From Parcubacteria group bacterium GW2011_GWA2_43_13 (GTDB lineage: Bacteria > Patescibacteriota > Patescibacteriia > UBA9629 > GWA2-43-13), in the NCBI GenBank assembly GCA_000999025.1, contig LCFM01000010.1, forward strand, positions 1-39,136: a stretch of DNA of 39,136 bases. The letters run 5' to 3'. Below, one piece after another: positions 23,098 through 25,346 of the stretch. The notes below the pieces were generated by a model. It saw nothing but the letters and a program-made list of their open reading frames with translations. It was not told the origin of the DNA and did not search any database. Made by a program: the position numbers and the translations under genes. Positions within the stretch are counted from its first letter, which is position 1. Each line of letters opens with the position of its first letter.

Positions 23098-23109
23098 ACA
23101 TGTTTAAAA

Positions 23110-23165
23110 TTATTTCCCCTCCCGAATAAACTGTATCGCGCGGACAGCGAGGAGGCATATACTGC
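23110..23165 (-). pseudogene. remnant of a thioredoxin reductase 3' end
   Basis: Minus-strand translation gives CTAG-SICL-LAVRAIQFIREGK-stop, matching the trxB C-terminus (SAGQGCLAAVRAIQFIREGK). The last 29 coding bases before the end (GTCCGCGCGATACAG...GGGAGGG) are identical to trxB; upstream the match decays quickly. It has no start and no conserved domain. With trxB it brackets the two-gene cassette at 23177-24189. Confidence 0.8.
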
Positions 23166-23176
23166 CAGCCGTACAC

Positions 23177-23449
23177 TTATTGTTTCACACTCTCCAACAA
23201 CTCAAGCGTTGCTTTAACCGAAGAGTTGTTGCTCTCATTCATCATCACCCTACCCTTAAACTGTTCCTGCAACGGCGTTAAAAACTCATCTGCCCACGAT
23301 GGTGATAAAGCAACTACTCCCTCAAAACCAATTTCTATCGCTTCATCATCACTCGTCTCTCTCAAAACTGGCTGAATCGCCAAATACGCCTCTCTCCCTA
23401 ACTGACGAGAGGTCAAAAGTGTCCCAAATTTTTTTAGCTCTAATTTCAT
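23177..23449 (-). CDS. STAS-like DUF4325 protein
   Basis: From ATG 23449 (MKLELKKFG) the 90-residue protein fits the DUF4325 pattern: FGTLLTSRQLGREAYLAIQPVLRE, then IEIGFEGVVALSPSWADEFLTPL, where the F-x-G-V-x-x-x-S-x-x-x-A-D-E-F block resembles a STAS-type anti-anti-sigma strand-helix. Such proteins usually sit directly beside a GHKL ATPase, as here: its ATG overlaps the ATPase stop by four bases (ATGA). By analogy with SpoIIAA/SpoIIAB it may be an ATPase partner or phosphorylation target, though the serine in VALSPSW is only a candidate site. Part of a cassette with trxB-derived flanks. Confidence 0.8.
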   Translation of the reverse strand: MKLELKKFGTLLTSRQLGREAYLAIQPVLRETSDDEAIEIGFEGVVALSPSWADEFLTPLQEQFKGRVMMNESNNSSVKATLELLESVKQ

Positions 23450-24189
23450 ACCTGTGTATCCATATAAAATTTCAAAAACGCCAAGCATCCCCGAAACTCA
23501 AAACTTGAAGAAGCGATTTTTATATCAGCCTGCGCTGTCTTAATCTGAACCACTGCATCCCCACTATAAAAAAATAGTTCCATATGCTCCGCCTGCACAA
23601 CTTTTTTCACAAACTTCAAACCATTTCCTCTATTCTCTGGACTCCTGCCAGTGATCACTTCGGTAAATGCAACCCGCAAGGCGTCTTCGTGGCTGGCAAG
23701 ATCAGGCCGAATTCGCTTTAATGTTTTCAAAATCCCCTGCCCCTTATCAGCAAGCACTACATATCCCCGAACTAAATCGTGTGCAAAAAAAATACCAACA
23801 TCCTCTGGCCAATTACCTAAATTATGATCAAAGGAATTATTGCCTATCTCGCCGACAACAGCCAAAATCAATGGATAAATCTTTTCTAATTCTTTGCGTG
23901 AAGCTAATTCCTGTTGGAACCTCGCTGAGCGCATCTGAAAAATACCGCTATTCTCACAATATTGATCCTGCGGTATGTTCTGAAGGGACAATTCGCCCAT
24001 TACCCATTTTTTTGCTTCTGCAAATATATCCCGCATATACGCATCCACTTGCTGTTTAGGATAAAACCTATGACCACGGGGACCTTTTTTGATTGCAGGA
24101 AAGTATCCCTTTCTATCCCACCGCCGCAGGGTGTCAACAGATACCCCCAACCGCAGGGATACCTCCCGTATTGTTAAGTAATCTTGCAT
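23446..24189 (-). CDS. MerR-type HTH fused to a GHKL (HATPase_c) domain
   Basis: Residues 4-50 form a MerR/excisionase-type winged helix (YLTIREVSLRLGVSVDTLRRWDRKGYFPA, then RGHRFYPKQQVDAYM). A linker precedes a GHKL ATP-binding domain with N-box EIGNNSFDHN (114-123), G1 box VLADKGQGIL (145-154) and G2 box RSPENRGNGLKFVKKVV (182-198), as in SpoIIAB-like anti-sigma kinases; there is no histidine-kinase dimerisation domain. Fusing a DNA-binding domain to this ATPase, with a STAS-like partner overlapping by four bases, suggests a switch in which ATP/partner state controls promoter binding. Four TATGCAA-type boxes at its own start (24184-24245) suggest autoregulation. The transcript opposes nothing and lies just downstream of trxB. 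Confidence 0.82.
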   Translation of the reverse strand: MQDYLTIREVSLRLGVSVDTLRRWDRKGYFPAIKKGPRGHRFYPKQQVDAYMRDIFAEAKKWVMGELSLQNIPQDQYCENSGIFQMRSARFQQELASRKELEKIYPLILAVVGEIGNNSFDHNLGNWPEDVGIFFAHDLVRGYVVLADKGQGILKTLKRIRPDLASHEDALRVAFTEVITGRSPENRGNGLKFVKKVVQAEHMELFFYSGDAVVQIKTAQADIKIASSSFEFRGCLAFLKFYMDTQV

Positions 24190-24245
24190 AGTTTAAGTAT
24201 ATCAAATTATGCAATACTATGCAACACCTGCCCAAAACTATACAA
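24184..24245 (-). promoter_or_regulatory. phased TATGCAA operator array upstream of the MerR-HATPase gene
   Basis: TATGCAA occurs at 24208-24214 and 24218-24224, with TATACAA at 24239-24245 and an inverted TTGCATA at 24184-24190 over the start codon. Direct copies are 10 and 21 bp apart, i.e. on one helix face. This layout suits cooperative binding of the MerR-type domain encoded just downstream. Confidence 0.55.
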
Positions 24246-24260
24246 ATAGAGAGCATCGCA

Positions 24261-25346
24261 TTACTTTCCCTCCCGAATAAACTGTATCGCGCGGACGGCG
24301 GCAAGGCATCCTTGGCCTGCCGAGGCGACCAGTTGTTTGGTGAATATGTTCGTGAGATCTCCCGCGGCATACAGACCAGGGGTTTTTGTTTCCGCTTTTT
24401 CGGTTACGATAATTTCTCCCCATTTGTTTGTCTCCACCAAATCCCCCAACCATTCGGTGTCCGCCTGCCAACCGATTTCTATAAACACTCCGTCTAATGC
24501 GATTTCTTTTTGCTCTCCGGTTGTTCTGTTTTTATATACCAGCCCTTTCACCTTTGTATCGCCTTTAATTTCCAGCGTTTCCGCGTTATATATTTTTTCC
24601 ACCTTATCGCTCGCCATAACGGTTTTAATCAATGCCGGTTCTCCTTGATATTCTTTGTCCCACACAATGCCGTACACCTTGGTTGCAACGCGGGATAAAA
24701 ACTCCACCGCCTCTAACGCGGAATTCCCTCCGCCAACAACCGCCGCGACTTTGTTTTTATAAAACGGAGCATCGCAGGTCGCGCAATACGCAACTCCATG
24801 GCCTTCAAATCTTTCTTCGCCCGGCACATTTAAATGTTTATGCTTCATGCCGGATGCCAAAATAACAACTTTTGCAGTATATTCCCCTGCATCCGTTGTT
24901 ATCTTAAACCCCGATACACCCCCCACCCCCGCTCCAAGAGGGGAATCACCGTCGTCACCCCTCCTTACTTGCCCCGACCCTGTGTCTGGGGAGGAGGGAT
25001 TAAGAGAGGAGGCGACGCCGTCGTCGTCTCCCTCTCCTAACATAGGAGAGGGCTGGGGTGAGGTATTATTTGATATTTGAAATTTGATATTTGAAACTTG
25101 TTTAACCCACTCATACCTAAACTCCGTTCCTGTTTTTTCCGCATGCTTTTGAAATTTCTGCATCAACTCCATCCCGCCGACTGATTCAAACCCGGGATAA
25201 TTTTCAATCACCTCGGTTGTCGCCGCCTGGCCACCAATATCCTTGGTAAAAATCACGGTTTTCAAATCATACCGCGTCGTATAAATCGCAGCCGCCATAC
25301 CGGCTCCACCGGCACCAATAATAACAACATCAAAATCGTAGTTCAT
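24261..25346 (-). CDS. trxB: thioredoxin reductase with an in-frame repeat insertion
   Basis: The protein starts with the FAD-binding Rossmann motif DVVIIGAGGAGMAAAIYTTRY, carries IENYPGF, the redox-active CATCDAP (the usual CATCDG with A), the NADPH-binding VVGGGNSALEAVEFLSR and the closing GLYAAGDLTNIFTKQLVASAGQGCLAAV. It reduces thioredoxin (gene at 25906-26232). About 62 residues at 24909-25094 (SNIKFQISNN...SPQPSPMLGEG...GGVSG) have no counterpart in the family and are encoded by repeat DNA inserted between VKQV and FKITTDAGEYTAKVVILASG. ATG 25346 is chosen; ATG 25367 is possible, lying 8 bp after a TATAAT box and so potentially leaderless. Confidence 0.9.
   Translation of the reverse strand: MNYDFDVVIIGAGGAGMAAAIYTTRYDLKTVIFTKDIGGQAATTEVIENYPGFESVGGMELMQKFQKHAEKTGTEFRYEWVKQVSNIKFQISNNTSPQPSPMLGEGDDDGVASSLNPSSPDTGSGQVRRGDDGDSPLGAGVGGVSGFKITTDAGEYTAKVVILASGMKHKHLNVPGEERFEGHGVAYCATCDAPFYKNKVAAVVGGGNSALEAVEFLSRVATKVYGIVWDKEYQGEPALIKTVMASDKVEKIYNAETLEIKGDTKVKGLVYKNRTTGEQKEIALDGVFIEIGWQADTEWLGDLVETNKWGEIIVTEKAETKTPGLYAAGDLTNIFTKQLVASAGQGCLAAVRAIQFIREGK
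24909..25094. repeat. composite palindromic repeat inserted in frame within trxB
   Basis: The stretch contains several hairpins (CTCTCCT/AGGAGAG, CCCTCTCC-type, CTCCTCCCC, GACGACGACGG/CCGTCGTCG) and the ACACCCC and GGAGGGATTAAG motifs also present in the elements at 38523 and 39025. It has no stop codon in the trxB frame. Confidence 0.75.

Follow-up and report, generated by a model that had tools for sequence, protein, structure and literature searches.

Why is the 3′ end of trxB present twice in this stretch of DNA, with two small genes enclosed between the copies? The stretch, hereafter the window, is an entire contig of 39,136 bases, from a genome of 0.97 Mb in 27 contigs, of the Patescibacteria kind. 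The repeat contains an identical 29-nt core (Table 1), and an exact repeat of that length would be expected by chance about 3e-9 times in 39 kb. Read on the minus strand, trxB ends in ...SAGQGCLAAVRAIQFIREGK-stop and its downstream copy in ...TAGSICLLAVRAIQFIREGK-stop. Only two genes, both on the minus strand, are enclosed by the copies: one for a predicted kinase with its own DNA-binding domain, the other for a STAS-like protein. An initial annotation of the sequence had noticed the repeat, which is real, with its first core copy starting at 23117 rather than 23118. It had proposed that the two genes form a tiny integrated module, or else that trxB was rebuilt by gene conversion.

Table 1 Features of the trxB locus in the window
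Feature	Position	Strand	Basis or remark
trxB, thioredoxin reductase, intact	24261-25367	minus	TIGR01292, E=1.4e-90
Direct repeat of trxB 3′ end	23109-23171 / 24260-24322	minus	63 nt, 81%
29-nt identical core CCCTCCCGAATAAACTGTATCGCGCGGAC	23117-23145 and 24268-24296	minus	gene-linked core (24268-24296) is the presumed crossover interval
Gene-linked copy (L) of trxB 3′ end	24260-24322	minus	repeat search
Left arm of unit, with promoter region of the pair	24190-24259	minus	
Operator-like repeat TGTATAG	24238-24244	minus	
Operator-like repeat TGCATAG	24217-24223	minus	
Operator-like repeat TGCATAA	24207-24213	minus	
Kinase P0001, MerR-type HTH fused to GHKL ATPase/kinase domain	23446-24189	minus	247 aa
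P0002, STAS-like DUF4325 protein	23177-23488	minus	Pfam, homologues, structure model
Sequence separating the two trxB-end copies	23172-24259	minus	1088 bp
Displaced trxB 3′-end copy (R)	23109-23171	minus	repeat search and copy alignments

The C-terminal part of the trxB product is 75% identical to the orthologue from a sister genus, represented here by genome G001. Positions 24916-25095 of trxB hold an in-frame insertion of about 55–60 residues (..NIKFQISNNTSPQPSPMLGEGDDDG..) that resembles a dispersed repeat; the G001 orthologue is without it. Dispersed palindromes, CCCCTCCT..AGGAGGGG, are common to the window genome (22670-22694) and G001 (L199, 2145-2166, 2828-2850 and 2903-2924).

We characterized the two proteins by profile searches, homologue comparison and structure models. 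The N-terminal helix-turn-helix (HTH) of P0001 matched the Pfam MerR model (PF00376, E=2e-11), and a MerR/HTH_17 domain was present in all 48 kinase homologues. Pfam ATPase models gave no match to the C-terminal domain, which has the motifs GEIGNNSFDHN, LADRG.G and RGNGLK, conserved first in a set of 12 homologues and again in one of 48. In Foldseek, its AlphaFold model, with a mean pLDDT of 92, matched the ATPase domains of Hsp90, topoisomerase II and GyrB with probability 1.0. P0001 is thus predicted, from motifs and model, to adopt the GHKL ATPase fold with an N-box and an ATP lid, and to be a kinase. No STAS domain was matched inside P0001, and the segment linking HTH and GHKL domain is helical. 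P0002 matched DUF4325 at E=0.019, while 37 of 39 homologues matched PF14213, and the nearest Foldseek matches to its model were the STAS proteins RsbS, RsbV and SpoIIAA, with modest scores. The partner consists of one domain of ~90–100 aa and carries no winged HTH (wHTH). Its serine S64 is invariant (SPSWADEF) and lies at the start of helix 63–80, by position comparable to the phosphorylated serine of SpoIIAA and CapS. Homologues begin the STAS gene at an internal ATG (M14, about 23449), which is probably the true start of P0002. With that start, the overlap of the two genes would be smaller than the raw ORF suggests.

The operator-like sites of the window are spaced 21 and 10 bp apart. Across loci, TGYATAG occurs within 120 nt upstream of the kinase ATG in 98 of 121 cases, with at least two copies in 78, and the spacing, mostly 21, 20 or 10 bp, places the sites one or two helical turns apart along the promoter region. 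In 11 genomes a strict form of the operator pair was found solely at the module and disclosed no wider regulon, this pattern being one that misses weaker sites, including the window's own. The placement of the repeats at the promoter and the uniqueness of the strict pair to the module make autoregulation through the MerR-type HTH of the kinase likely; that it takes the form of repression is our guess from the position of the sites.

The bracket is not specific to trxB: the same pair is inserted at different genes in many related bacteria. A first self-comparison revealed several relatives with flanking repeats, and 17 of the 126 distinct loci examined have the pair inside such repeats (21 repeat pairs in all), against ~1.2 expected from five such spaced pairs in 400 kb random stretches (Poisson P about 2e-14). 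In an independent test, exact left/right matches of at least 15 nt were present in 11 of 113 loci and in none of the permutations. A clear bracket is therefore seen at 13% of the loci; in the 109 others, either the repeats have been lost or entry occurred by another way. The repeats range from 20 to 243 nt and are locus-specific, consisting of whatever stands at that site: besides the trxB 3′ end, an ABC-transporter 3′ end (locus L060), an HU gene end with its terminator (L087), the ends of genes for a 203-aa protein (L152) and a 409-aa protein (L076 and L235), the starts of rdgB (L061), a DUF167-like gene (L075) and an HTH gene (L135), and intergenic DNA (L102 and others), where target names without a Pfam match are our reading of the sequences. 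L115 and L117 have perfect 20-nt repeats at the unit edges.

The edges fall within narrow limits. The left copy usually ends 67–290 nt upstream of the kinase start (67 nt in the window), the right copy mostly begins no more than ~90 nt from the STAS stop and sometimes in the last STAS codons, and right edges recur within about 20 nt of that stop; the interval between copies is 1.07–1.28 kb in most other bracketed loci. No k-mer was shared among the repeats across loci above the level of shuffles, and folding of four identical cores gave no notable structure of the attC hairpin kind. Similar repeats occur elsewhere in these genomes at a lower rate, and the pair may be a frequent passenger of a more general process. 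Other direct repeats of 50–76 nt, spaced ~1.1–1.4 kb, in L020 (928-2399), L060 (5098-6303) and L205 (2044-3222) may bracket further cargo.

If insertion had simply duplicated a gene end, the outer copy should decay as a remnant. Synonymous and nonsynonymous codon differences between the copies instead number 10:1 in L060, 7:2 in L087, 9:3 in L076 and 4:1 in L152; the window copies differ at 5:5, where 9.5 nonsynonymous changes would be expected under random change (P=0.005). The codon test gave P≤0.005 for each of these five loci; the bias was weaker in L061 (P 0.02) and absent in L071, and L075 and L135 have too few differences. The synonymous bias indicates that each copy was a functional gene end in a genome of its own while the differences arose, and that the two were brought together afterwards. 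We therefore rejected a perfect target-site duplication followed by decay, as a drifting remnant would not gather mainly synonymous changes.

An empty site was available for L060. In G384, the closest relative found for this locus, the ABC gene is directly followed by MNT/HEPN-like genes, without the pair, and the displaced copy of L060 adjoins MNT/HEPN-like genes as in G384. At differing sites in the 5′ part, the native sequence agrees with the gene-linked L copy at 7 of 8, while at the 3′ sites, including the stop region GTGAGGTAA, it agrees with the displaced R copy (Fisher 0.003 with the stop tail, 0.024 for coding sites only); the switch between host and incoming sequence falls inside a 32-nt identical tract. 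The two L060 copies are thus reciprocal host/incoming hybrids, the mark of a single reciprocal crossover, a pattern clear in this one locus. For the window there are few sites to compare: the L copy is native in its 5′ part, the last codons of the R copy, GGG AAA, match G001, and the switch lies inside the 29-nt core. The 3′ part of the R copy is probably the original host trxB end, and its 5′ part is probably unit-borne and decayed. L152 agrees at the tail and, like the window, is supportive, whereas L076/L235 is mixed; for the HU case, L087, the available relatives are too distant for polarisation. In G436, a relative of L075, the DUF167-like gene stands without the module, which lies elsewhere in that genome.

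These comparisons support the proposal of a tiny integrated module, given the brackets, the unoccupied sites and the recurrence of the pair at other gene ends, the last two being what the initial annotation had suggested looking for. Insertion at a gene 3′ end as the source of the duplication is likewise upheld. A plain duplication of the end does not describe it, as the copies diverged as functional genes and in the best case, L060, are reciprocal hybrids; local gene conversion of trxB is not supported.

Comparisons among relatives point to movement of the pair. G384 carries a 92%-identical pair ~5 kb from the ABC gene end, bracketed by rdgB starts, and among the 24 closest non-identical comparisons (~80–92% DNA identity) the only shared flanks were those of the same-site pair L076/L235 (L079 and L235 are one locus). 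Two genomes have the pair at the 409-aa gene end and seven do not; one of the seven, G398, has other cargo there, a RhuM-like gene without a detectable duplicated end. The sister genus provides a parallel at trxB: G001 (L199, G001:C48, 2100-3977) has trxB and two further decayed copies of its 3′ end, aligned by eye and with MAFFT, with genes for a zeta-toxin-like kinase, a DUF559 protein and a KAP NTPase between or after the copies and no trace of the kinase/STAS pair. The trxB end is thus a recurrent entry point in the family, in a process wider than the pair. The two genes without a trxB remnant, and a remnant without the genes, had been named in advance as observations that would refute the initial reading. 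For trxB both exist, the first at other genes and the second in the sister genus, yet both agree with a wider view, that many gene ends serve the unit as targets and that several cargos arrive at the trxB end. In L152 (reversed, 1814-3457) and L135 (2850-5512), a gene end or repeat is present at least three times, with other small genes in between, in what look like accretion arrays.

How, then, could the unit enter? The reading that we favour, and hold to be rather probable, is that the pair is a mobile unit of ~1.1–1.3 kb that has captured a host gene end and enters by a homology-driven single crossover. The unit would comprise the promoter with its operator repeats, the MerR-HTH/GHKL kinase, the STAS partner and the captured gene-end segment, which, with the unit drawn as a circle, would sit between the STAS stop and the promoter. 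One reciprocal Campbell-type crossover between the captured segment and its counterpart in a new host would keep the gene intact but give it a new 3′ (or 5′) end, and would leave a displaced copy beyond the unit; at trxB, the 3′ end beyond the crossover would have been supplied by the incoming unit. We infer a circular form and RecA-type recombination, with natural transformation as the probable route and imprecise excision as the means by which new gene ends would be captured. Natural competence is documented in Patescibacteria (PMC10633639; PMC12455944), and this would make DNA uptake followed by homology-driven entry the simplest route. The unit carries no recombinase, neither gene being an integrase or transposase in profile searches. 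Tyrosine recombinases were found in 11 of 12 genomes searched, mostly one per genome and of ~310–330 aa, the size of housekeeping Xer; a recombination enzyme acting on the unit in trans is possible. A bolder version, which we put forward as doubtful, is that such units form a class of recombinase-free elements that use host gene pieces as homology arms and re-enter after DNA uptake, the HTH-GHKL/STAS pair controlling excision or spread.

Integrative elements of gene 3′ ends and SCC cassettes insert at a gene end, replace that end, leave a displaced copy and accrete cargo. The unit resembles them in all of these respects, a duplicated gene end bracketing it, but has no recombinase, no common attachment core and many target genes. 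Integron gene cassettes are minimal mobile gene units with a recombination segment behind the last stop codon, a likeness to our unit that serves as a lead only; here no attC-like hairpin was found in the four cores folded, the unit has its own promoter, and the segment is host gene sequence. The pair could nevertheless be cargo of gene-end cassettes moved by a site-specific recombinase in trans, as with SCC at rlmH or integrons, with the repeats as attL and attR. Such cassettes would be expected to target gene ends, to leave displaced ends and to accrete serially, as in G001, where the trxB end is present three times, and in L152, where one gene end has three copies; reciprocal hybrid ends are also compatible with site-specific recombination. 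We consider it unlikely, because the repeats have no common motif, the four folded cores gave no hairpin, some targets are gene starts or intergenic DNA, most carriers have a single Xer-size tyrosine recombinase, and no integrase was seen on any unit.

Linear DNA could also have entered by homology-facilitated illegitimate recombination during transformation, in which one end is homologous, the other is joined by chance, and part of a host gene is duplicated. The mechanism is known in naturally competent bacteria (PMC3240628), Patescibacteria are competent (PMC10633639; PMC12455944), and it would account for repeats that vary in length, are specific to the locus and differ mainly at synonymous sites. 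It predicts a wholly native displaced copy, whereas the 5′ part of that copy in L060 is non-native at 7 of 8 sites, and chance joining would not favour right edges ~20 nt from the STAS stop; we find this quite improbable. A transposon-like element whose target-site duplications are very long and vary in length is the least credible reading, since there is no transposase, the repeats (20–243 nt) have no fixed length and the synonymous bias, which cannot arise from a decaying duplicated remnant, contradicts it in the coding cases, although it could apply to the perfect 20-nt edge repeats of L115 and L117 and would suit insertions at both gene ends.

The kinase was found in 83 of 381 genomes of the class, and genome contigs gave 80 loci of the pair, overlapping partly with the genomes of the kinase survey; the surveys cover sampled stretches, and the data are MAG contigs. 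Carriers are nearly all candidate-phyla-radiation groups (Portnoybacteria, Uhrbacteria, Yanofskybacteria), a few oddly labelled bins excepted. The kinase gene comes first and the STAS gene follows, after a gap that ranges from a few bases to a few tens. Among 67 downstream genes, mostly housekeeping or mixed, there was no conserved third gene such as a toxin or immune effector; L061, L088 and L012 have an extra small gene inside the bracket. In the window, a gene for a 127-aa protein of no known family (22714-23097, minus strand) adjoins the pair; a 54%-identical relative lies directly 3′ of the pair in L071 (2637-3041, plus strand), where the duplicated target is the 5′ end of that relative's gene. 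An ORF near the pair in L005 (2277-2810) resembles, by eye, the zinc-ribbon C-terminal part of a serine recombinase. A phage or plasmid origin was rejected, as phage and plasmid collections gave HTH-level matches only and a set of 2.9 million viral contigs yielded one; a match to MADS mad1 was set aside too, being confined to the HTH.

The nearest described pairs are CapK/CapS and VapK/VapS(C) (PMC13373217). In CapK/CapS, a GHKL kinase phosphorylates its STAS partner when single-stranded DNA appears (PMC13373217, EMBO J 2026). By its anatomy, our pair would likewise act as a compact switch, in which a GHKL kinase (HTH-bearing, as in CapK) stands beside a STAS partner with a comparably placed invariant serine, and the promoter has binding sites, putative here. 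Unlike CapK, the kinase is a 247-aa protein with a MerR-type HTH and no STAS domain found within it; the partner, unlike CapS and VapS, is a bare STAS-like domain without a wHTH or toxin-binding tail; no conserved immune operon or toxin lies downstream (67 genes); and the operators are repeats of TGYATAG in direct orientation rather than TTAA palindromes. The GHKL domain with N-box and ATP lid, the N-terminal HTH and the partner serine at a helix start are features in common with CapK/CapS. We do not file the pair as a member, because three defining features, a STAS domain in the kinase, a wHTH on the partner and an adjacent immune operon or toxin, were looked for and not found. RsbW/RsbV and SpoIIAB/SpoIIAA also combine a GHKL ATPase with a STAS-fold partner, and RsbS, RsbV and SpoIIAA are the modest structural matches of P0002; the unit differs from them in having no sigma factor and a kinase with its own DNA-binding domain. 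With CapK/CapS as a close experimental analogue, the pair is plausibly, as initially suggested, a self-contained ATP-gated switch, which may have a stress- or phage-related role: the kinase would bind its own operator through the HTH and, on a signal, phosphorylate the STAS partner at the invariant serine, which would reset its own transcription. Going by CapK, the signal would be single-stranded DNA from damage or phage.

Patescibacteria import DNA and acquire genes, and the pair provides a defined, traceable case of how small gene units may reach their minimal genomes without integrases. Its empty sites, its hybrid ends and the recurrence of independent insertions make the entry route testable in a transformable Patescibacterium. 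For annotation, it is a warning that repeated gene ends in such genomes can be scars of integration. Kinase/STAS switches of the CapK/CapS kind have in it a stand-alone, mobile and apparently self-regulating counterpart across many Patescibacteria lineages.
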